A stretch of DNA of 34,732 nt from Arcicella sp. (GTDB taxonomy: Bacteria; Bacteroidota; Bacteroidia; Cytophagales; Spirosomataceae). Positions within the stretch are counted from its first letter, which is position 1. Each line of letters begins with the position of its first letter. The stretch is taken from positions 1-34,732 of the forward strand of contig JANXML010000100.1 of assembly GCA_025354645.1 (NCBI GenBank). Direction: 5' to 3'. The notes beneath the pieces were generated by a model that saw nothing but the letters and a program-made list of their open reading frames with translations, was not told where the DNA came from and ran no database searches. The position numbers and the translations under genes are program-made. Below are positions 3,337 through 31,372 of the stretch, one piece after another.

Positions 3337-5556
3337 ATGAAACACTTTTCCTTAACAATATTTTTATTGATTTTTACTTTTACTCCCACTTTTGCAACGC
3401 ATATTGTAGGTGGTGAAATTGAACTGGCTGCCGTGAAAGGTCAAAGTGGAATTACACATAAAGTAAGTTTAAATCTTTATTTTGATGACATAAATGGGCA
3501 AATTGGAGCGGTTGACCAAACCTTAAATTTAGGAATTTTTAGGAAAAAAGATAATTTTTTAATGGGTTACGCAACGCTTCCTTTTGTGAGTAATAACTTG
3601 ATTTCCTACACAAATCCTGCCTGTGTACAAAGTAATGCTGTCAGGACAAGGCTGTTGCAATATAGCGTTTTGATTAATTTATTGCCAGATGATTTTAATG
3701 ATGCAGGTGGATATTACATTGCCTGGGAACGTTGTTGTCGAAATAATATCATTTCAAATATCCAAAATCCTGCTGGGGCTGCATCCGTTTTTTATTTAGC
3801 TTTTCCTGCCCAGAAGCAGAATGGAACATTATTTTCTAATTCTTCTCCAACATTCAAAACTCTAACGGGTGATTATATTTGCTTAAATCGTCCTTTTACT
3901 TTCGAGTTTGGGGCAACTGATACAGACGGTGATAGTTTAGTGTATAGTTTACAAACTCCTTACAATGGATTTAGTACTTCCACCAATCCTAAACCTGATT
4001 TACCACAGGGTAGTTCTAACTATCCACCCGTTCAATGGGGAACAAGTTATAATTTAAAAAGCGTCATGTCAGGACTTGACCCTTTAAAAGTGAATTCCAA
4101 AACTGGGCAACTAACTGTTACAGTGGATAAAGAGGGCTTATACGTTTTTTGCGTTCTTACAGAAGAATATAGAAAAGGAATTAAAATAGGGGAAGTTAGA
4201 CGAGATTTTCAATTAAAAGCGATTGATTGTCCTTTAAATAATGCTCCGAAGGCACTATTTAAAGAAAAAGGAAAATCGGAATTTTATAATCCTTCAACCG
4301 TTTTAAACATCAAAGCGGGGGATAAAAGATGTTTGACAATTTTGGAAACGGATTCAGACATTAATCAATTCATCAGCATGAAAATTATACCAATAAATTT
4401 CAAAAATGTCCCTACAATTACGCCCTCAACTATACTAATTTCTTCCACAAAAGATACTTTAAAATCGGAAGTTTGCTTTGATGAATGCTCGGAATCTTTT
4501 GATGGAAAACCTTTAATTTTTGATGTAGTAGCAACGGATAATGGTTGTCCTCAACCACTGACGACGACCTTAAGAATGCAAGTATTTATTGAACCACGAC
4601 CAAACGTTGCCCCAATTGTGAATACTGATTTACTAAATCAAAAAGGAGAATCACCGCTTGGTAAGCCTTTGAAATTTAATGTTTTAGGATTAGACAAAGA
4701 TAATGATAACATAACTCTAACAGCACGTGGACGTGGATTTGACTTGGCGAAGGCAGGTATGAGTTTTGCAGGGGGGGAGGCAATTGGTAAGTTAACTTCC
4801 CCTTTTACTTGGACACCAATTTGCGATTTGAATCAAAAGGGAGATTACATTATTGATTTCATTTTAACGGATACTCGTTGCGGACGAAATTTAAAGGATA
4901 GTATTTCAGTAACCTTGAAACCAATTATTCCGTTGAGTGACCCGCCAGAAGTAAAAACCTCTCTTATAAAAAATGAAATTGAGGTAATTTTAGACGGAAC
5001 AGAACCTCAGCCTATCAATTTTGATGTTATTTCTACCGACATAAATTTAGATCCATTGAAACTTTATGCACAACCAAAAGGATTTGATTTGAAGTCGGTG
5101 GGCATGATTTGGGTTGATAAGGAGGGGGTAGCGAAAATTATAAATCCCTTTGCCTGGAAACCAGATTGCAGTTTTTTAAAAGGAAAAGACCAAGCTGAAT
5201 TTAAGATTGATTTTATTACCGAAGATAACTCGTGCAGTCCAAACAGGTTTGATACAACTTCGGTAAAAATTACTTTGAAAAATAAAATTGCCAACTATGA
5301 TTTATTTAAACCCACAAATGTTTTCTCGCCAAATGGAGACGGCAAAAATGATTACTTTGCTTTAGATTTACCCGAAAACAACTGTTCAGAAAAATTTGAA
5401 TTTATTGAAATATTTAACCGTTGGGGAAGTTCAGTTTATAAATCGGAAGACCGAAATTTCAAATGGACTGGTGGAGAATTCGCATCTTCTGACTATTACT
5501 ATTTTCTAAAATTTACGGTTAAAACGTTTAAAGGCTGGGTGAGTTTGATTCGTTAA
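3337..5556 (+). CDS. T9SS-exported surface protein with gliding-motility type B C-terminal sorting domain
   Basis: The 739-residue protein starts with a Sec signal peptide (MKHFSLTIFLLIFTFTPTFA, then THIVGGEIEL). The middle has beta-rich Ig/cadherin-like segments, including two clearly related repeats (roughly residues 430-530 and 535-650) sharing GFDL..GM and a PF.W.P.C core. Acidic loops such as DTDGDSLVY could bind calcium. The C-terminus from about residue 655 (NVFSPNGDGKNDYF at 661, then EIFNRWG and WTG) is the type B sorting domain that sends proteins through the type IX secretion system to the cell surface. Even pairs of Cys suggest disulfides. No enzymatic domain is seen; adhesion or a structural role is inference. 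The gene stands alone and its stop overlaps the convergent Uma2 gene at TTAA. Confidence 0.92.
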   Translation: MKHFSLTIFLLIFTFTPTFATHIVGGEIELAAVKGQSGITHKVSLNLYFDDINGQIGAVDQTLNLGIFRKKDNFLMGYATLPFVSNNLISYTNPACVQSNAVRTRLLQYSVLINLLPDDFNDAGGYYIAWERCCRNNIISNIQNPAGAASVFYLAFPAQKQNGTLFSNSSPTFKTLTGDYICLNRPFTFEFGATDTDGDSLVYSLQTPYNGFSTSTNPKPDLPQGSSNYPPVQWGTSYNLKSVMSGLDPLKVNSKTGQLTVTVDKEGLYVFCVLTEEYRKGIKIGEVRRDFQLKAIDCPLNNAPKALFKEKGKSEFYNPSTVLNIKAGDKRCLTILETDSDINQFISMKIIPINFKNVPTITPSTILISSTKDTLKSEVCFDECSESFDGKPLIFDVVATDNGCPQPLTTTLRMQVFIEPRPNVAPIVNTDLLNQKGESPLGKPLKFNVLGLDKDNDNITLTARGRGFDLAKAGMSFAGGEAIGKLTSPFTWTPICDLNQKGDYIIDFILTDTRCGRNLKDSISVTLKPIIPLSDPPEVKTSLIKNEIEVILDGTEPQPINFDVISTDINLDPLKLYAQPKGFDLKSVGMIWVDKEGVAKIINPFAWKPDCSFLKGKDQAEFKIDFITEDNSCSPNRFDTTSVKITLKNKIANYDLFKPTNVFSPNGDGKNDYFALDLPENNCSEKFEFIEIFNRWGSSVYKSEDRNFKWTGGEFASSDYYYFLKFTVKTFKGWVSLIR

Positions 5557-6161
5557 GTGGTTGATTTTAAGAAACTTAAATCGAATTCTAAGTCTGGTAA
5601 GATTTTTTCTCCTGATAAAATATTATCGAATCCTATAATTAAATCAACCGTTCCATTGGCTCTGAAAATTCTAACTTCTTCTTCTTTTGGGAAAATTAAC
5701 CAAGCAAGTTGACAACCATTATCAATCCATTTATACATTTTTTCTACCGCATATTTCAAATCATCCGAATTAGACATTAATTCAATCACAAATTCAGGGC
5801 AAAGTGGAGGAAATTTTGTTTGTTGTTCTAATGTTAAACTATTCCACCGTTCGTTAGAAATCCAGGCAGCATCAGGAGAACGCACCGCAGAACTTGGTAA
5901 CCTGAAAGCGGTTGATGAATCGAATAATTGCCCAAGTTTATTTTTACGGTTCCAGATCCCTAAATCTATAATTAAGTCACTATTCTTGATTCCTGTAATT
6001 CCCCCAGTATTTGGCATCAATAATATATTTCCAAAACAATCTCTCTCGAATTTTATTTGGTCATTCAATAAACAAAACTCATAAAATTCATCGTCATTCA
6101 TCCGATGATTTTCTAATTGTTTAAGTGAATAAATGCTCTCATATTCTGAGGTTATTACCAT
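5553..6161 (-). CDS. Uma2 family protein (DUF820, PD-(D/E)XK nuclease-like)
   Basis: A member of the Uma2 family, common in Bacteroidota and cyanobacteria, with a restriction-endonuclease-like fold and no established cellular role. Visible family signatures are the SPDAAWIS strand, the PEFVIELMSNSD strand (Glu of the nuclease core) and K..W...G..LAWLI near the C-terminus. I place the start at the ATG at 6161 (about 202 residues). The longer frame would start with TTG at 6191, but that codon lies inside a TATATTTG promoter box. The gene stands alone between convergent and tandem neighbours and has its own promoter. A paralogue lies at 21395-21946. Nuclease activity is inferred from the fold only. 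Confidence 0.88.
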   Translation of the reverse strand: MVITSEYESIYSLKQLENHRMNDDEFYEFCLLNDQIKFERDCFGNILLMPNTGGITGIKNSDLIIDLGIWNRKNKLGQLFDSSTAFRLPSSAVRSPDAAWISNERWNSLTLEQQTKFPPLCPEFVIELMSNSDDLKYAVEKMYKWIDNGCQLAWLIFPKEEEVRIFRANGTVDLIIGFDNILSGEKILPDLEFDLSFLKSTT

Positions 6162-6188
6162 TTCAATTGGATTTATATTTGGTTTAGT

Positions 6189-6196
6189 CAAATATA
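6189..6196 (-). promoter_or_regulatory. -7 promoter box of the Uma2 gene
   Basis: The minus strand reads TATATTTG, an exact TAnnTTTG match. Transcription would start near 6182, giving a leader of about 20 nt to the ATG at 6161. This decides against the upstream TTG at 6191. No clear TTG -33 element is seen at the usual spacing. Confidence 0.5.
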
Positions 6197-9200: not shown

Positions 9201-9265
9201 TAAATTTTAGGCATAAAAAAAAGAGAATCATCTTTGATTTCTCTTTTTTTTATGCCTAAAATTTA
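9201..9265. terminator. Bidirectional terminator with 27-bp perfect arms
   Basis: The two arms (9201-9227 and about 9239-9265) are perfect inverse complements over 27 bp, with A8 on one side and T8 on the other and a short loop between. A core GAGAA stem flanked by A8/T8 is a good intrinsic terminator in both directions. It starts 6 bp after the rnz stop codon on the minus strand. Confidence 0.85.
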
Positions 9266-9271
9266 AGTGAA

Positions 9272-10183
9272 TTATATTTCAAAAAACATACCTTCCTCCG
9301 CTAATTCTGAATTCATAAATTCACTTCTGACTTCTTCTAAGAGTGGACTCAAATCTTTATACCTTGAAGAAAAATGTCCAATCAATAACTTTCCAACATT
9401 TGCTTTTCTGGCAATTTGACCAGCCTGTTTTGCCGTTGAATGATTAGTTTGAAAAGCTCTTGATTCCAAATCATTCAAAAATGTGGCTTCATGGTAAAGA
9501 AAATTTACATTTTTTATAATGTCAATAATCGGTTCATGGTATAAAGTATCTGAACAAAAAGCATAGCTCTTACTTTTTGAAGAAGGAGTTGTATAAATTC
9601 GATAATCATACTTAATTGAACCATCTTCATTTAAAATGTTTTTGCCATCTTTCAACAACTTGATTTGCTCAATCGTTAAATCATTTGGCATTGTTTCTTT
9701 TATAATCTTGTGTTTATGAGGCTTTTCTCTGAATAAAAATCCACAACATTCAACTCGGTGAATTAAAGGAATTGTTGTCACCGTAATATGTTCATTTTCA
9801 AACAATTGATAAGAATTTTTGGTATCCGTTTCAATAAAATGCAATTTAAAGTTCAACCACGCACCAGAATATTTAAGTTGAATGGTAATTATTTCCGCCA
9901 ATCCTTTGGGACCAAATATCCATAAATCATCAACTCTTCGGTGCATATTTAAAGTTGAAATCAATCCAATTAATCCAAAATAATGATCGCCGTGTAGATG
10001 TGTAATGAAGATGTATTTCAGCCGAGTTGGACGAAGTTTATAGCGAAGTAACTGATTTTGAGTTCCTTCCCCACAATCAATTAAATAGCCATCTTGCTCA
10101 ATTTGAAGAAAATGAGCCGTAGGATTTCGTGTGAGAACAGGCGTTGCTGAACCAGTACCTAAGATTGTTAAATTAAAACTCAA
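9272..10183 (-). CDS. rnz: Ribonuclease Z
   Basis: The tRNA 3'-processing endonuclease, which cleaves after the discriminator base of tRNA precursors that lack an encoded CCA (as the three tRNAs in this window do). The 303-residue length is usual for the short form. The metallo-beta-lactamase signature HLHGDH is at residues 62-67 after MSFNLTILGTGSATP and DCGEGTQ. Further metal ligands are seen in FCSDT and the C-terminal IGHFSSRY. The start codon is TTG at 10183 (the minus strand reads ACA TTG AGT); no in-frame ATG precedes it and the residues that follow are the family's normal N-terminus. A heptamer array lies 11-45 bp upstream and a candidate promoter beyond it; a strong terminator follows. 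Confidence 0.95.
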   Translation of the reverse strand: MSFNLTILGTGSATPVLTRNPTAHFLQIEQDGYLIDCGEGTQNQLLRYKLRPTRLKYIFITHLHGDHYFGLIGLISTLNMHRRVDDLWIFGPKGLAEIITIQLKYSGAWLNFKLHFIETDTKNSYQLFENEHITVTTIPLIHRVECCGFLFREKPHKHKIIKETMPNDLTIEQIKLLKDGKNILNEDGSIKYDYRIYTTPSSKSKSYAFCSDTLYHEPIIDIIKNVNFLYHEATFLNDLESRAFQTNHSTAKQAGQIARKANVGKLLIGHFSSRYKDLSPLLEEVRSEFMNSELAEEGMFFEI

Positions 10184-11802: not shown

Positions 11803-11881
11803 ATTTCGATTTTCGATTTTCGATTTTCGATTTTCGATTTCAAACACTTCATCCGAAATCGAAAATCTGAAATCAAAAATC
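11803..11881. repeat. CGATTTT heptamer array with inverted arm, upstream of purC
   Basis: Five 7-nt units CGATTTT run from 11807 to 11841, ending 5 bp from the purC ATG. After a 12-bp spacer come four units of the opposite orientation (CCGAAAT, CGAAAAT, CTGAAAT, CAAAAAT; 11853-11880). The two halves can pair as a long imperfect hairpin between the thiolase stop and the purC start. Confidence 0.8.
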
Positions 11882-11884
11882 TTT

Positions 11885-19961: not shown

Positions 19962-21383
19962 ATGAGAGACTTAGAAATACTTACAGAAACGGATAAAGAA
20001 TCCTTAGAATTGCCCCGCACGTCGTTAGAAGAGAATAATGTAACAGGCAAAAGAAAATTATACATTGAAAGTTATGGATGTCAGATGAATTTCTCTGATT
20101 CTGAAATAGTTACCTCAATTCTACAAGAAGGTGGATATTCCACAACTGCTAATTTTGAAAACGCTGATGTTATTCTTTTGAACACTTGTGCGATTCGTGA
20201 AAACGCTGAACAAAAGGTTAGAAATCGCTTGAATAATTTTGGTTATTTAAAGAAAAAACGCCCTGATTTGGTCGTGGGCGTGTTGGGCTGCATGGCTGAA
20301 CGTTTAAAAACGAAATTTTTGGAGGAAGAAAAAATCGTGGATATTGTCGCTGGACCAGATTCTTACCGAGACCTTCCAAACCTCCTTAGTGAAGCCGAAG
20401 ATGGACATAAAGCCATCAATGTTTTTCTCTCAAAAGAAGAAACTTATGCCGATATTTCCCCCGTTCGTTTAAATTCCAATGGCGTAACCGCCTTTGTTTC
20501 CATCATGCGTGGCTGTGACAATATGTGTTCGTTCTGCGTTGTGCCATACACCCGTGGTCGTGAACGTTCTCGTGATGTTTACTCAATTATTAAAGAATGT
20601 CAGGATTTATTGGATAATGGTTACAAGGAAGTAACGCTTTTAGGGCAGAATGTAGATTCTTACAAATGGACTTCAGAAGACGGCTTGGAGAAAGTGAATT
20701 TCGCACAACTTCTTGAAAGAGTGGCACTTATCAGTCCTGACTTGCGAGTTCGTTTTTCAACTTCACATCCAAAAGACATTACCGATGAAGTGCTTTATAC
20801 CATCAAAAAGTATGAAAACATTTGTAAATATATTCATCTACCTGCCCAAAGTGGAAGTAGTCGTATTTTGAAAATGATGAACCGCACTTACGACCGTGAA
20901 TGGTATATAAATAGGATTGATTCCATCAGAAATATTTTGGGCGAAGATTGTGGGATTTCGCAAGATATGATTGTTGGATTTTGTACTGAAACTGAGGAAG
21001 ATCATCAGCAAACACTTTCGTTGATTGAGTACGTAAAATATGATTATGGTTATATGTTTTCTTATTCAGAACGTCCTGGAACGCCTGCCGCCAAGAAATA
21101 CGTGGATGATATTCCTGCCAAAGTAAAGCAAAAACGCTTGGCAGAAGTGATTGATTTACAATTAAAATTGTCCTTGGAAAGAAATAATAGAGCCATCGGA
21201 CAAGTGCAAAAAGTATTAGTAGAGGGCTTTTCAAAGCGTTCAGAAGATTTTTTACAAGGACGAAACGACCAAAATAAAAAGGTGATTTTTCCGAAAGAAG
21301 TACATAAAAAAGGAGATTATGTGATGGTGAAAATTACGTCTTGTTCATCAGCTACCTTAAAAGGGGAACCCGAAAATTCTTAA
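19962..21383 (+). CDS. miaB: tRNA-2-methylthio-N6-dimethylallyladenosine synthase
   Basis: A radical-SAM methylthiotransferase that adds the 2-methylthio group to i6A37 of tRNAs reading UNN codons. The 473-residue protein has an N-terminal MTTase domain ([35 protein letters not shown], whose cysteines bind the second Fe-S cluster). The radical-SAM CxxxCxxC is at residues 185-192 ([16 protein letters not shown]). A TRAM domain lies at the C-terminus ([19 protein letters not shown]). It has its own promoter box. A Uma2 gene starts 11 bp after the stop. Confidence 0.96.
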
Positions 21384-21394
21384 ATTTAAAGACA

Positions 21395-21946
21395 ATGCAA
21401 AGATTCCAGGTACAACAAACGGATTTACCGTATTACACATATCAAGACTATAAAACATGGGAAAATCAGTGGGAACTCATTGGAGGTTTACCTTTTTCCA
21501 TGTTCCCATTACCGACAGTCAGGCATCAACGATTAAATAAATTAATTGTTAGAATCTTAGATAATGAATTAGAACGTAATGGTTGCGGTGATTGTGAAGC
21601 AATGATGCCAATCGACTGGAAAATTGATGAAAATACTATCGTTCAGCCAGATGCTTCCATTATTTGTTCAGAATTAGATGCAAAATATATCACGAATACC
21701 CCAAAACTCGTTTTTGAAATCTTATCTCCTTCCACTCGTAAGAAAGATTTGACAATAAAATTTGAATTGTATCAATTAGAAAGAGTTAAATATTATTGTA
21801 TAGTTGATCCTGAAAACACAGTTGCTACTATCTATCAGTTAATTGATGGAAGGTATCGCCAAGTATTTGAATCTCAGAATGATACCTATATTTTTATAAT
21901 TGAAGATTGCGAAGTAGTATTTGATTTTAGTAAAATTTGGAAGTAA
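21395..21946 (+). CDS. Uma2 family protein (second copy)
   Basis: A second Uma2/DUF820 member of 183 residues. I choose ATG 21395 (MQRFQVQQTDLPYYTYQDY), 11 bp after miaB, over the extended frame that overlaps miaB. Family features: QPDASIIC strand, KLVFEILSPSTRKKD (nuclease-core Glu and Lys) and KYYCIVDPENTVATIY near the C-terminus. Identity to the copy at 5553-6161 looks low, so it is not a recent duplicate. It is wedged between miaB and the sigma54 activator and is probably co-transcribed with both. Function unknown. Confidence 0.88.
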   Translation: MQRFQVQQTDLPYYTYQDYKTWENQWELIGGLPFSMFPLPTVRHQRLNKLIVRILDNELERNGCGDCEAMMPIDWKIDENTIVQPDASIICSELDAKYITNTPKLVFEILSPSTRKKDLTIKFELYQLERVKYYCIVDPENTVATIYQLIDGRYRQVFESQNDTYIFIIEDCEVVFDFSKIWK

Positions 21947-21951
21947 AACCT

Positions 21952-23286
21952 ATGCAAATTCAAGAATTACAATCCATAAAAGCTCGTTTCGGTATCATTG
22001 GAAATTCTCCCAATTTGAATCATGCCATTGAAGTAGCTGGACAAGTTGCCCCAACTGACATGACAGTTTTAATCACGGGTGAAAGTGGTTCTGGAAAAGA
22101 GTCTTTTTCTAAAATAATTCACAACCTTTCTGCTCGCAAACACGGTCAATTTATTGCCGTTAACTGTGGAGCAATCCCCGAAGGAACCATTGATTCTGAA
22201 TTATTCGGGCATGAAAAAGGAGCGTTTACAGGAGCAATTGATGCAAGAAAAGGCTATTTTGAAGTAACAGATGGCGGAACAATTTTCTTGGATGAAATTG
22301 CAGAAATGCCTCTTGGAACGCAAGCACGCCTATTACGAGTCCTTGAAAATGGAGAATTCATCCGTGTAGGTTCATCAAAAGTTCAAAAAACGAATGTGCG
22401 GGTAGTGGCGGCAACAAATATCAATTTGATGACTGCTGTTGAACGTGGAAAATTCAGAGAAGATTTATATTATCGATTAAATACTGTACCAATTTTCGTG
22501 CCTCCGCTTCGTGATAGAGGGATGGATATTGAGTTGTTATTTAGGAAATTCACTACTGATTTTGCGGAGAGATATCGTATCAAACCGATTCAATTAACAC
22601 CCGATGCTCAGCAAATTTTATTGTCACAAAGATTTCCAGGCAACATTCGTCAATTAAAAAATTTGGCAGAACAAATTTCAATTTTAGAGGTAGATGAGAG
22701 AATTATTGATGCTAATAAATTGACACATTATTTACAAATGAATAATGGACAGTCAATTAGTAATAGTCTGATTCGCAGGAATTTAGAAGACAAACAATCG
22801 GATAATTTTTCAGAAAGAGAGTTACTTTACAAAATTCTCTTTGATATGCGAAAGGACGTGACCGAATTGAAAAAGATGTTTTTAGAGGTATTAAAAAATG
22901 GGGAAATTAGTCCTGAAATATTGAAGGGAAATGAAGGTTTATTCCAGAATTTAGAACCTGAAAGAACATTTCAATATCAGCCGAATTTGAATCAGCTCGA
23001 AACAAATCCTACCCGAATTTTAAATGGACATAATAATTATCAACCTAATCCTGAATTAACAATTATTAACTACAACGGTGAAAATCAGGAAAATAAAAAT
23101 GGTTTTATAGACGTTACTCACGAAGCCGAAGAAGTATCTTTCTCACTCGAAAAGCAAGAGAAAGATATGATTATCAGGGCTTTACAGAAAAATAAAAACA
23201 AAAGGAAATATGCTGCACAAGACTTGGGAATCTCAGAAAGAACCCTTTACAGAAAAATTAAACAGTATGATATTGAGGAAGATTGA
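21952..23286 (+). CDS. Sigma54-dependent transcriptional activator without receiver domain
   Basis: A bacterial enhancer-binding protein of 444 residues. The AAA+ domain fills about residues 15-245: Walker A GESGSGKE at 43-50, the sigma54-contacting GAFTGA loop at 90-95, Walker B GGTIFLDE from 108 and FREDLYYRLN. A linker rich in Asn/Gln follows, and a Fis-type helix-turn-helix closes the protein (KRKYAAQDLGISERTLYRKIKQY). No response-regulator or other sensory domain precedes the ATPase, so its signal input is unknown. ATG 21952, 5 bp after the Uma2 stop, is preferred to a TTG at 21937 that overlaps that gene. A heptamer array begins 4 bp beyond the stop. Confidence 0.93.
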   Translation: MQIQELQSIKARFGIIGNSPNLNHAIEVAGQVAPTDMTVLITGESGSGKESFSKIIHNLSARKHGQFIAVNCGAIPEGTIDSELFGHEKGAFTGAIDARKGYFEVTDGGTIFLDEIAEMPLGTQARLLRVLENGEFIRVGSSKVQKTNVRVVAATNINLMTAVERGKFREDLYYRLNTVPIFVPPLRDRGMDIELLFRKFTTDFAERYRIKPIQLTPDAQQILLSQRFPGNIRQLKNLAEQISILEVDERIIDANKLTHYLQMNNGQSISNSLIRRNLEDKQSDNFSERELLYKILFDMRKDVTELKKMFLEVLKNGEISPEILKGNEGLFQNLEPERTFQYQPNLNQLETNPTRILNGHNNYQPNPELTIINYNGENQENKNGFIDVTHEAEEVSFSLEKQEKDMIIRALQKNKNKRKYAAQDLGISERTLYRKIKQYDIEED

Positions 23287-23290
23287 GTCA

Positions 23291-23388
23291 GTTATCAGTT
23301 ATCGGTTATCGGTTATCAGTTGTCGGTTATCAGTTATCAGTAAACAGTTATCAACAAACAGTTATCAGGCTTATGTAAACGGTTATCT
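23291..23388 (+). repeat. Heptamer array (GTTATCA class) between the sigma54 activator and lptE
   Basis: Fourteen consecutive units in unbroken 7-nt phase. GTTATCA occurs six times; variants include GTTATCG, GTTGTCG, GTAAACA, ACAAACA, GTAAACG and GTTATCT. The unit CAGTTAT/GTTATCA is like the heptamers called STRR in filamentous cyanobacteria (from memory). The array fills most of the gap before lptE. Confidence 0.9.
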
Positions 23389-23431
23389 GTCAGTTTTAAA
23401 TAAAGTCAAAAAACTATTCTTTAAATTCAAA

Positions 23432-23929
23432 ATGTTTACCGTTTACTGTTTACTGTTTACTGTTACCAGTTCACTGTTTACGAGTTGTTACACCTTCCGA
23501 GGGGCGAGTCTTGACCCAAATTTGAAGACAATTCAAATTCAAAATTTCCAATTTCAAACGGCAGGTGGACCTCCAAATTTGAGTTTGCAGTTTAATGAGA
23601 AGTTAAAAGAATATTTTCAGAGAAATACGTCCTTAAAAACTGCTAACGTTAATCCTGATTTGATGTTTGAAGGTGCAATCACAGGCTTTACAGTCGAACC
23701 AAAAGCAGCTTCTTCTGATGATAAAGGTGGTTTGAATCGCTTGACAATCACTATTTCAGTAAAATTTACTAATGCCAAAAACGACGAAAAAAGTTACGAT
23801 CAAGAATTTTCTTTTTACCAAGATTTTGCTCAAACTCAAACCATCACAGCCGTACAAGGTGAATTAGTACCCAAAATTTTAGACCAAATTGTTTTAGATA
23901 TTTTCAATAAAACCGCTGGGGAATGGTAA
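23432..23929 (+). CDS. lptE: LptE-family LPS assembly lipoprotein
   Basis: An outer-membrane lipoprotein that partners LptD in delivering LPS to the cell surface. The 165-residue protein has a lipobox cysteine at residue 19 (SSLFTSC), then YTFRGASLDPNLKTIQIQNF, characteristic of Bacteroidota LptE. I choose the ATG at 23432; the frame is open further upstream but only through the heptamer array. The signal peptide MFTVYCLLFTVTSSLFTSC is itself encoded by a heptamer array and shows a 7-residue period (FTVYCLL, FTVTSSL, FTSC). It lacks the usual N-terminal lysines, so a longer, non-AUG-initiated form (the preceding residues are KKLFFKFK) cannot be ruled out. The position between the sigma54 activator and the TPR/secG genes is the normal one in Bacteroidota. 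Confidence 0.88.
   Translation: MFTVYCLLFTVTSSLFTSCYTFRGASLDPNLKTIQIQNFQFQTAGGPPNLSLQFNEKLKEYFQRNTSLKTANVNPDLMFEGAITGFTVEPKAASSDDKGGLNRLTITISVKFTNAKNDEKSYDQEFSFYQDFAQTQTITAVQGELVPKILDQIVLDIFNKTAGEW
23434..23482 (+). repeat. Heptamer array (GTTTACT class) inside the lptE signal-peptide codons
   Basis: Seven 7-nt units in phase: GTTTACC, GTTTACT three times, GTTACCA, GTTCACT, GTTTACG. They start on the G of the lptE ATG and cover codons 1-17. Three heptamers equal seven codons, which explains the 7-residue repeat in the signal peptide. The unit is the inverse complement of the GTAAACA variant in the preceding array. Confidence 0.9.
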
Positions 23930-24010: not shown

Positions 24011-24052
24011 AGAACCGAAAATCAAACATCAAAATCCGAACATTAAAATAAA
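24011..24052 (+). repeat. Heptamer array abutting the TPR gene start
   Basis: Six units in phase (AGAACCG, AAAATCA, AACATCA, AAATCCG, AACATTA, AAATAAA) end exactly at the base before the ATG at 24053. Further upstream, inverse-complement segments (CGGTTTG at 23951-23957 against CAAACCG at 23998-24004) could pair to give a hairpin. Confidence 0.65.
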
Positions 24053-24760
24053 ATGAATAAAGACGTATTTTCATATCTCGTTGCTCACCCCGTTAATCTT
24101 TCGATCTCGGATGTAAAAACGATGGAGGCGATTACTAAACAATATCCATACTGTCAATTAGGGCATACTTTATTGGCAAAAGGATTTCATACGCATTATG
24201 CAGAGGAATTGGCTTTCGAGAAAATTCGTCATGCTTCTGCCCATGCACTTAGTCGTAATGCACTACGCAAACTGATAAATGGTAGTTTTCGGAACGAAAT
24301 TAGTTCTACCTTACACCCGAAATTCGATTCAGAATATTTACGGAAGTTTACGGAAGTGCCTGCAAATCAAACCAGCAATTCTTCCGAAGATGACATAATT
24401 GAGCAAACAGAATTGATTTCTAATATTGATTTGTTAACTAACTCATCTGCTGTTGAAGATTTATTATTAGACGATATTGTGCAAAGAAAGCAATTACAAA
24501 ATTCTATTATTGATAGTTTCTTAATGAAAGATCCTGGACTTATTAGAACAACTAAAAGTCAATTGGAAGCAATGGGGAAACAGGAAGATTTATCAATTGG
24601 AAGTGCCAAATTAGAAAAAGGGATTGTGACTGAAAGTTATGCCAAAATTCTGACCATGCAAGGGCGTAGAGATAAGGCAATAGAGGTCTATGAGAAATTA
24701 ATTTTGAAATTTCCAGAAAAAAAGGCGTACTTTGTAATCAAAATTCAAGAATTGGCATAG
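24053..24760 (+). CDS. Hypothetical protein with C-terminal TPR, between lptE and secG
   Basis: A 235-residue cytoplasmic protein without signal peptide or membrane helix. The N-terminal part (VAHPVNLSISDVKTMEAITK, YPYCQLGHTLLAKGFH) recurs in Bacteroidota proteins at this locus but has no assigned function. The middle is acidic and low in structure (NSSEDDIIEQTEL). The C-terminal 40 residues are a good TPR unit (ESYAKILTMQGRRDKAIEVYEKLI, LKFPEKKAYF). Its place between lptE and secG hints at an envelope or export role, but this is inference from position only. Confidence 0.82.
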   Translation: MNKDVFSYLVAHPVNLSISDVKTMEAITKQYPYCQLGHTLLAKGFHTHYAEELAFEKIRHASAHALSRNALRKLINGSFRNEISSTLHPKFDSEYLRKFTEVPANQTSNSSEDDIIEQTELISNIDLLTNSSAVEDLLLDDIVQRKQLQNSIIDSFLMKDPGLIRTTKSQLEAMGKQEDLSIGSAKLEKGIVTESYAKILTMQGRRDKAIEVYEKLILKFPEKKAYFVIKIQELA

Positions 24761-24768
24761 GTTATGTT

Positions 24769-24857
24769 AGTTAAATAGTTAAAAAAGTTTTTCGGTTAAA
24801 AAGTTAAACTTTCAGAATTTTAACTTTCTAACTGTCAAACTTTGTAACTTTTAAACA
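24769..24857 (+). repeat. 8-nt-period array with inverted halves upstream of secG
   Basis: Octamers in phase: AGTTAAAT, AGTTAAAA, AAGTTTTT, CGGTTAAA, AAGTTAAA (24769-24808), then the inverse orientation TTTTAACT, TTCTAACT, GTCAAACT, TTGTAACT, TTTAAACA (24818-24857). The halves pair as a hairpin, best between about 24795-24808 and 24818-24832, with a short loop. The array lies 36 bp before the secG ATG. It is the only one here with an 8-nt rather than a 7-nt period. Confidence 0.75.
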
Positions 24858-25399: not shown

Positions 25400-25457
25400 T
25401 TTTGCAGAATTTTAGGCAATGGCATAAAATATGACGAAATTTGTGTTATTACGTGAA

Positions 25458-25536
25458 AGGTTTTGGGTGTTAGATTTTAGTAATTGCATTTTTCTTTTGC
25501 TGAAACCTAACACCCAAAACCTAAAACCTAATAAAA
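25458..25536. repeat. Hairpin with 16-bp arms built of heptamers, upstream of groES
   Basis: Arms AGGTTTTGGGTGTTAG (25458-25473) and its exact inverse complement (25507-25522), loop 33 bp. The right arm continues as a heptamer array (GAAACCT, AACACCC, AAAACCT, AAAACCT, AATAAAA; 25502-25536) ending 37 bp before the groES ATG. Confidence 0.8.
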
Positions 25537-25958: not shown

Positions 25959-27624
<1,666 letters not shown>

Positions 27625-31040: not shown

Positions 31041-31128
31041 GGAGAGTTGCCTGAGAGGCCGAAAGGAGCCGTTTGCTAAACTGCCGTACCTCACAAGGGT
31101 ACCGAGGGTTCGAATCCCTCACTCTCCG
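31041..31128 (+). tRNA. tRNA-Ser(GCU)
   Basis: Acceptor arms GGAGAGT and ACTCTCC pair, G is the discriminator, and the T arm is GAGGGTTCGAATCCCTC. The anticodon loop TTGCTAA carries GCT at 31075-31077. A long variable arm (GTACC...GGGTAC) marks it as a class II tRNA. CCA is not encoded, so RNase Z processing applies. Confidence 0.95.
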
Positions 31129-31183
31129 CAAAATTGATAGAAGTAAGATCATTTTTTTCGATTTTGTAATAGGTTATTATTTT

Positions 31184-31257
31184 CGGGGTGTAGCGTAGCC
31201 CGGTATCGCGCCTGCTTTGGGAGCAGGAGGCCGTAGGTTCGAATCCTGCCACCCCGA
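31184..31257 (+). tRNA. tRNA-Pro(UGG)
   Basis: Acceptor CGGGGTG pairs with CACCCCG; discriminator A. Anticodon stem CCTGC/GCAGG holds the loop TTTGGGA with anticodon TGG at 31218-31220. T arm TAGGTTCGAATCCTG. CCA is not encoded. Confidence 0.95.
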
Positions 31258-31259
31258 CT

Positions 31260-31289
31260 AAAATAGTTATCATTTATGGTAACTATTTT
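31260..31289 (+). other. Hairpin between tRNA-Pro and tRNA-Arg
   Basis: AAAATAGTTA and TAACTATTTT pair perfectly with a 10-nt loop and are followed by ATTTT. It may be a weak terminator or a spacer stem that helps separate the tRNAs during processing. Confidence 0.5.
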
Positions 31290-31298
31290 ATTTTAAAA

Positions 31299-31372
31299 GG
31301 TTCCGTAGCTCAGTTGGATAGAGCAACAGATTTCTAATCTGTGGGTCACAGGTTCGAATCCTGTCGGGATCA
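31299..31372 (+). tRNA. tRNA-Arg(UCU)
   Basis: Acceptor GGTTCCG pairs with CGGGATC (two G-T pairs); discriminator A. Anticodon stem ACAGA/TCTGT holds the loop TTTCTAA with anticodon TCT at 31333-31335. D arm AGCTCAGTTGGATAGAGC and T arm ACAGGTTCGAATCCTGT are standard. CCA is not encoded. Confidence 0.95.

Follow-up and report, generated by a model that had tools for sequence, protein, structure and literature searches.

The lptE locus and its paired heptad arrays

The window, by which we mean the whole 34,732-nucleotide stretch of Arcicella sp. DNA that was analysed (contig JANXML010000100.1), carries the genes for a sigma-54 activator, LptE, a TPR-like protein, SecG, GroES and GroEL, in an order that is present in 8/8 compared genomes. 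The last codons of the sigma-54-dependent activator gene (21937-23286, + strand; PF00158, PF25601 and PF02954) overlap the inferred start of lptE. The lptE ORF was identified by its match to PF04390 (61.2 bits, cut-off 23, for the 165-aa version), while the 220-aa version gave no NCBIfam match. From the frame lock described below and PF04390, the revised coding sequence would run from 23267 to 23929 on the + strand and encode 220 aa, with a 73-aa leader and the lipobox residue at Cys 74. Elsewhere in the window, three consecutive tRNA genes are found at 31041-31372, and an Rfam scan of the window at gathering thresholds returned three tRNAs and nothing else. A perfect 27-nt inverted repeat with an 11-nt loop (9201-9265) lies just beyond the end of the minus-strand ORF at 9272-10183.

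An earlier note on this DNA had described seven GTTTACT-class heptamers beginning on the G of an lptE ATG, and these are confirmed. They stand in an unbroken row at 23434-23482 (+ strand), their first letter being the G of ATG 23432, in the order GTTTACC, GTTTACT three times, GTTACCA, GTTCACT and GTTTACG (7.0 copies and 78% matches by TRF). In translation they form most of the hydrophobic core that precedes the lipobox cysteine codon at 23486-23488 (+ strand; LFTS-C), and all 70 lptE loci read have a Cys codon within 4 codons of the equivalent position. The lag-7 identity of the array is 33/42, against a mean of 12.8 and a maximum of 26 in dinucleotide shuffles, and none of 20,000 shuffles reached the observed value. 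Against synonymous recodings, 34 of 47 lag-7 matches were observed where the mean was 21.1, and 1 recoding in 20,000 reached 34; an excess over synonymous recodings was likewise seen in 21 loci (mean z 3.0, minimum 1.7). Since the periodicity exceeds that of both shuffles and recodings, it is a property of the DNA and more than a peptide repeat. The further claim, that the LptE signal peptide owes its hydrophobic core to repeat DNA, also holds, and heptads are absent from relatives that include G001 (Arcicella rosea) and the five loci of group g2. The contrary case, the same residues without heptad DNA, was looked for and not seen in the 70 loci; relatives with different heptads have different signal-peptide residues. 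Of the groups named here, g1 includes Arcicella aurantiaca and A. rosea, g2 is mostly Flectobacillus, and g5 is Spirosoma.

The picture of a single array is contradicted by a second one that the earlier note had missed. This array, (TCAGTTA)n, lies directly after the upstream stop codon at 23288-23368 (+ strand; 11.6 copies by TRF; lag-7 56/74, reached by 0 of 20,000 shuffles) and is inverted relative to the GTTTACT heptamers, which are thus one arm of a palindrome. The inverted repeat of the two arms occupies 23326-23474, with 23326-23367 facing 23433-23474 (71% complementary; z 3.4, 0/60 shuffles). Between the arms, the loop (23369-23433, + strand) encodes the Lys-rich segment NKVKKLFFKFK ahead of the hydrophobic core, and a single ORF stays open across both arrays. 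A Cys, a hydrophobic core and a Lys-rich stretch are all present in what would be an exported and lipidated LptE. That a hydrophobic peptide and T-rich codons merely imitate a heptad repeat by chance is almost certainly wrong: hydrophobic residues are encoded by T-rich DNA, and non-heptad relatives are T-rich too (0.40 versus 0.45), but this idea is already contradicted by the synonymous-recoding test, and moreover the left arm is paired and the words match elsewhere in the genome.

The arithmetic of heptads suits them to coding. As 7 is 1 mod 3, a pure heptad array gives one cyclic heptapeptide in all frames; a stop-free unit is therefore open in every frame, and only the total length need be a multiple of three. 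By the same arithmetic GTTTACT gives VYCLLFT and TCAGTTA gives SVISYQL. T-rich units encode hydrophobic residues. Heptad-coded cores roughly match the others in hydropathy (2.04 in 23 heptad loci versus 2.17 in 34 others), and the net charge ahead of the core is the same (3.09 versus 3.18).

Reading frame and start of lptE

From 196 lptE matches, 70 loci were read, with several genera, g54 included, lying outside the sample. Although the upstream stop and the lipobox Cys lie anywhere between 40 and 208 nt apart, their distance is 1 mod 3 in 67 of the 70 (window included), and the three exceptions (L019, L024 and L030) have no array. Across the 70 loci the lptE frame contains 1 stop, and the other frames 208 and 129. 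Of the lptE junctions of at least 75 nt, 54/55 are open in the lptE frame, compared with 1 and 8 in the other frames; in a non-coding control 4 of 87 frames were open at 29 junctions (Fisher p 3.5e-33 versus lptE), and 38 non-coding junction lengths from 7 junctions were spread 16/11/11 mod 3. This control drew on 7 of the 9 viewed junctions and excluded overlaps and lengths of 400 nt or more. A second sample of 49 loci included 24 already present in the first set and 5 that lacked a usable Cys or upstream gene; of the 20 further loci that were counted, 17 were at 1 mod 3 and the 3 exceptions had no heptad signal.

An in-frame ATG precedes the last base of the upstream stop codon by 11-23 nt in 66/70 loci, including the window, where it lies at 23267-23269 (+ strand) in the terminal part of the sigma-54 activator gene. 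It is absent in L019, L024, L030 and G006; in G006 an ACG takes its place, and this gene must therefore start elsewhere. Because the stop-to-Cys distance is frame-locked in 67/70 loci, the simplest reading is that translation likely begins at the overlapping ATG 23267 and continues through both arms to give the 73-residue leader. Array-free relatives (G001, the five g2 loci and others) have an ordinary short signal peptide in the same frame from the overlapping ATG. A leader of 73 aa is long for a lipoprotein, and this counts against the 23267 start. Nearer in-frame ATGs exist in seven of eight Arcicella loci, at 54 (G000), 51 (G006), 57 (G003), 69 (G005), 90 (G007), 90 (G004) and 18 nt (G001) before the Cys, with none in G002, and some of these could serve and give leaders of ordinary length. 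Their positions vary between loci and leave the frame lock unexplained; the frame lock speaks for a role of the upstream start, and nearer starts may be used as well.

The earlier note had started lptE at ATG 23432 and proposed that one array, invading or expanding there, supplies the hydrophobic segment of the signal peptide, with steps of three units that could tune export. The ATG does stand exactly on the edge of the array in the window, and in three other Arcicella loci an in-frame ATG precedes the Cys by 51-69 nt, but its position varies, and no ATG lies in that range in G007, G004 or G002. A start at 23432 is probably wrong, as it would leave no Lys or Arg ahead of the core, and so no positive n-region, and does not account for the fixed mod 3 distance to the upstream stop, for a left arm that is open in the same frame or for the pairing of the arms. 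The expected steps of 21 nt do not hold either: Arcicella leaders are longer than that of the array-free G001 by 51, 57, 84, 84, 96, 99 and 150 nt, and all seven differences are multiples of 3, but only 2/7 are multiples of 21. Taken together, this makes growth of a lone array from ATG 23432 very improbable.

Change of words and lengths between species

Array totals vary with the criterion chosen. Over the 70 loci, an inverted-repeat (IR) z of at least 4 was found in 28, a lag-7 value of at least 0.5 in 23, both in 18 and either in 33, and the remaining 37/70 showed neither. Inverted repeats were also used because a strict lag-7 scan overlooks weaker arrays such as that at lptE in G005. One genome per species entered the comparison, and between these species the 33 loci with arrays by either criterion all keep the frame (33/33). 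In a quick tree of the 70 rows, in which many branches were weakly supported and 13 rows of unclear state were excluded, the presence of arrays switches 11 times (23 rows with, 34 rows without).

The words themselves differ within a genus. Among Arcicella genomes lptE carries GTTTACT in G000, G007 and G004, CTGCCTA in G005 and TTATTGT in G006, with others in G003 and G002. Differences at 4-fold sites were 0.28-0.72 in the compared pairs, near saturation in most. G006 and G003, with a 4-fold difference of 0.28, have right arms that are 47% identical and lengths 39 nt apart, and G007 and G004, with a difference of 0.47, have right arms 96% and leaders 93% identical. In two pairs, G007/G004 and G167/G182, leaders are more conserved than 4-fold sites. 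Change in the leader thus looks episodic from these alignments. Turnover that is generally faster than neutral was considered and rejected, as two conserved pairs contradict it, and it is not claimed here because neutral sites are near saturation in most pairs; faster-than-neutral turnover is suggested in a few pairs only (G006/G003).

The two arms change together within a genome. When left arms were paired with their own or with other species' right arms, the sum of own pairings was reached by 22 (g1, n=7), 0 (g5, n=19) and 73 (g53, n=11) of 20,000 permutations, and the own right arm was the single best partner in 5/7, 7/19 and 2/11 loci, respectively; pairing in g53 is weak (own mean 16.7 versus 13.1 across species). 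Several Spirosoma loci contain near-perfect palindromes in which variant heptamers follow the same order on both arms. Stop avoidance among arm mismatches, expected if the left arm is bound to stay open, was at most suggestive (14/102 versus 17/204 for other bases, Fisher p 0.16; 27 loci with a pairing score of at least 20).

Dispersal of heptad words and palindromes

Words found at lptE recur elsewhere in the same genomes. Three tandem copies of GTTTACT gave 26 matches in G000 and three of CAGTTAT gave 89 (up to 2 mismatches, overlapping), and the reversed controls gave 0 in both cases. In the other genomes GTTTACT x3 had 87 matches in G007, 44 in G004, 24 in G002, 1 in G006 and 0 in G001, G003 and G005, counts in which matches overlap within arrays. 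CTGCCTA x3 had 10 matches in G005 and at most 1 in other genomes, and G002 has another word at lptE despite its GTTTACT arrays elsewhere.

These counts bear on the idea that the arrays arise purely by local microsatellite slippage within each lptE, without dispersal or import. Consistent with this, the G006 word has three matches, all at its own lptE (its reversed control also matches), and the similarity of the G007 and G004 leaders would be expected of it. Against it, the right arm of lptE and the insert in nspC have a 23-mer in common in G176, which matches 9 sites of that genome when up to 1 mismatch is allowed, among them 1 at lptE and 2 in nspC, and none in 35 congeners. The word ATCATTCTTAATTCATCATTC has more copies outside lptE in the 6 Spirosoma genomes that carry it there than in the remaining 30 (Mann-Whitney p 0.0015, kinship uncorrected), and slippage alone does not yield an inverted partner whose variant units keep the same order. 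We regard purely local slippage as unlikely.

Two Uma2 genes occur in the window, at 5553-6191 (-) and 21341-21946 (+). Uma2 matches per genome numbered 22 in G000, 15 in G007, 4 in G001, 23 in G005, 16 in G004, 1 in G003, 5 in G006 and 27 in G002. Across these eight genomes, G001, G003 and G006 have few Uma2 matches and few copies of the tested heptad words, and G005 has many Uma2 matches and few copies of those words.

Palindromes are more frequent than expected in the stretches sampled from three genomes, with inverted repeats numbering 43 against 5 after one shuffle in G000 (127 kb), 67 against 6 in G005 (238 kb) and 36 against 0 in G176 (200 kb); these counts cover other palindrome types too, and the control is one shuffle per genome. 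When longer-loop arms were scored at lags 3-12, lag 7 was highest in G000, G005 and G007, narrowly so in G001 and G176, and not in G008. At the strict threshold period 7 leads in G000 (8 arrays, against 3 for the next most frequent period) but not in G005 (6 of period 7 versus 8 of period 8), and its lead in G176 is slight (6 versus 5). Other junction palindromes in G176 (L101-L110 joined) look period-8 (GATTGAAT; for example at offsets 69803, 118861 and 193256) or longer-period (AGGATTAGCC...; for example at offsets 72354, 73265 and 161179).

Many of these palindromes lie between genes. Nine junctions were compared by eye in up to eight genomes, and many hold an inverted pair whose words differ by species. 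In the window, inverted TTTCGAT-type heptad arms, non-coding, fill the thiolase-purC junction (11804-11882, - strand; repeat and inverted-repeat scans), and inverted AAACCTA-type arms, also non-coding, lie at the secG-groES junction (25446-25534, + strand; inverted-repeat scan). No inverted pair was present at the junction upstream of thiolase (9-16 nt), and a purC-STAS pair was seen in G005 only. Heptad-like arrays occur at window junctions 11804-11882, 24015-24054, 24784-24851, 25446-25534 and 25960-25995, several being inverted arms. Among Arcicella species the junction arrays around lptE retain their position and change in sequence. At the lptE-TPR junction G001 (Arcicella rosea; L075) has 479 nt of longer tandem repeats, compared with 18-123 nt in seven others.

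Heptad arrays also encode parts of other proteins. In gldD (TIGR03512) the lag-7 value of the signal peptide is 0.57-0.70 in G000, G004, G006 and G007 and lower in G003 (0.45), G005 (0.36) and G001 (0.27), seven Arcicella loci in all, L149 having been dropped as mis-anchored and G002 having had no match; no gldD locus read outside Arcicella reached 0.5. In the window genome (L141:1387-2043, + strand, contig C43) GTTTACT-class heptamers encode the GldD lipoprotein signal peptide, and a partial left arm is visible upstream by eye. An array-coded signal peptide was likewise found in TamL of G176 (NF052279, 541 bits, cut-off 400), and in two unnamed ORFs, one of 439 aa in G005 and one of 227 aa in G000 (L118).

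The most telling case beyond lptE is nspC (TIGR01047, carboxynorspermidine decarboxylase). The gene was matched in 36 genomes and read at 30 Spirosoma loci, and in 2 of these 30, G176 (L109:5392-6663, - strand) and G212 (L222), an in-frame heptad palindrome is inserted in the middle of the enzyme (IR z 21.6 and 8.6, respectively). The other 28 nspC loci have 10-27 residues there and no apparent palindrome, and two of the longer ones gave IR z values of 1.1 and -0.9.

A possible RNA hairpin or a probable captured leader

A serious rival to a coding role, which could coexist with it, is that an mRNA hairpin at gene junctions, acting as a brake, attenuator or stability element, is what is chiefly maintained, with signal-peptide coding a by-product of the gene overlap. 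Leader RNA folds beyond shuffles, with a mean z of -2.40 and 32/55 long leaders below -2, compared with a mean of -0.14 and 2/55 for the upstream control, and the covariation of the arms and the return of palindromes with altered sequence at the same junctions (by eye) also speak for it. The excess is modest in the window leader (z -1.9) and in G007 (z -1.2), and arm pairing from whatever cause would bring it about. In addition, heptad palindromes occur between convergent and divergent ORFs (by eye, from crude ORF calls) and one sits inside the nspC enzyme gene, and therefore an operon function is not implied; the 37 lptE loci without an array by either criterion also speak against a maintained hairpin. 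Translational coupling as a general role was considered separately and is unsupported, as palindromes also occur at convergent and divergent junctions (by eye, crude ORF calls). We consider that a hairpin is not the likely main explanation, although it is one to be taken seriously.

It is probable, in our view, that the GTTTACT array is the right arm of a dispersed and largely genome-specific heptad palindrome, lying in frame between the lptE start and the lipobox. Such palindromes are dispersed in these genomes and lie at many gene junctions, with words largely private to a genome or to a few close relatives. Because the genes overlap at this junction, an insert placed right after the upstream stop codon becomes lptE coding sequence, and its translation would start at the overlapping ATG 23267. 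In the resulting leader an N-terminal extension that can be dispensed with would come from the left arm, the Lys-rich segment from the loop and the hydrophobic core from the T-rich right arm, and the lipoprotein export pathway should take off all three. An insert at such a junction would survive only if it is in frame, open and provided with a hydrophobic right arm.

Once in place, the words may change by copying from elsewhere in the genome, by slippage and by exchange between arms, while selection would retain the frame, openness, charge, hydrophobicity and the Cys. Possible routes of copying, each an established mechanism, include template switching between arms, ectopic conversion and transposition. 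Our best reading is that palindromes are tolerated where any hydrophobic sequence works. The arrays, their pairing, the frame lock, the open frame, the joint change of the arms, the dispersal of the tested words and the occurrence in other genes are observations, and it is from these that we infer the lptE start, export, leader removal and the copying and turnover of the DNA. A wider proposal can be put forward only tentatively, and we hold it slightly more doubtful than even: that heptad palindromes are a self-dispersing, word-changing class of DNA in this bacterial family, which has repeatedly entered overlapping junctions and been domesticated there as signal peptides. The export signals of core envelope proteins (lptE, gldD and tamL) would then evolve through wholesale replacement by genome-private repeat words under frame selection, and not through point mutation.

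On the favoured reading of lptE, the family offers a natural experiment on the minimal needs of a signal peptide, with one outer-membrane assembly protein carrying unrelated, repeat-coded export signals in many species. The locus would also illustrate how repeat DNA can become an in-frame segment of a conserved protein, with the frame constraint directly visible, and it points to dispersed heptad palindromes as a poorly described class.

Comparison with known systems

REP/RAYT elements are GTAG/CGTC-tagged palindromes with an associated transposase. In a phase-variable simple-sequence contingency locus, expression is switched when the number of units changes within a species; here, with one genome compared per species, the frame is kept at all 33 array loci. 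In searches of an open-access collection, beyond which most subscription papers lie, we found no report of heptad palindromes serving as signal peptides, nor of recurring, frame-locked and word-changing capture of export signals. Heptamer arrays, inverted pairs, in-frame palindromes and one predicted repeat-derived signal peptide are already known, as far as the accessible portions of the sources go.

The closest match in sequence is the TAACTGA heptamer, which forms direct repeats in Beggiatoaceae, Cyanobacteria and some Bacteroidetes (MacGregor 2015, PMC4679880). Since TCAGTTA is the reverse complement of TAACTGA, the left array of the window is the same heptamer on the other strand, with the same 7-nt period, and it consists of direct repeats as those sets do. 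TAACTGA sets occur near gene starts and some lie inside ORFs, where they read LSVISYQ, and strains differ by 7-nt indels; in the main genome studied most sets are forward and directly precede start codons, and related heptamers seldom occur as repeats (PMC4679880). The array here is reverse-oriented and, by the frame test, inside lptE, and neither inverted partner arrays of such a kind nor an in-frame signal peptide is described in the accessible part of that paper.

Inverted pairs are common among the G-rich GGGAATC repeats of Xanthomonas and Nostoc, with 70 and 75 in two genomes (PMC4692102). These are likewise heptameric arrays, often in inverted pairs, but they have a fixed G-rich word of quadruplex type, and no coding capture is described in what is available of that report. 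Rickettsia palindromic elements are dispersed, lie in frame in unrelated genes and are translated (MITE review PMC10969869). They resemble the present palindromes in their in-frame insertion into unrelated genes, here 33/33 array loci of lptE and 2/30 loci of nspC, and differ, compared by description, in forming defined families of about 150 bp where the words here are 7 nt long and vary by genome.

Both arms of an inverted repeat are also translated in the coding palindromes of Nematomorpha mitochondria (PMC6649704); those arms encode conserved parts of proteins, whereas the arms at lptE encode a leader that is predicted to be removed. The nearest precedent for the export signal is an enterobacterial gene in which a dispersed 168-bp repeat element is predicted to supply part of the signal peptide, the signal sequences of its relatives being unrelated (PMC2759123). 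On the available text, that case concerns one fixed element in a single gene, while the replacement described here is recurring and frame-locked across a family.
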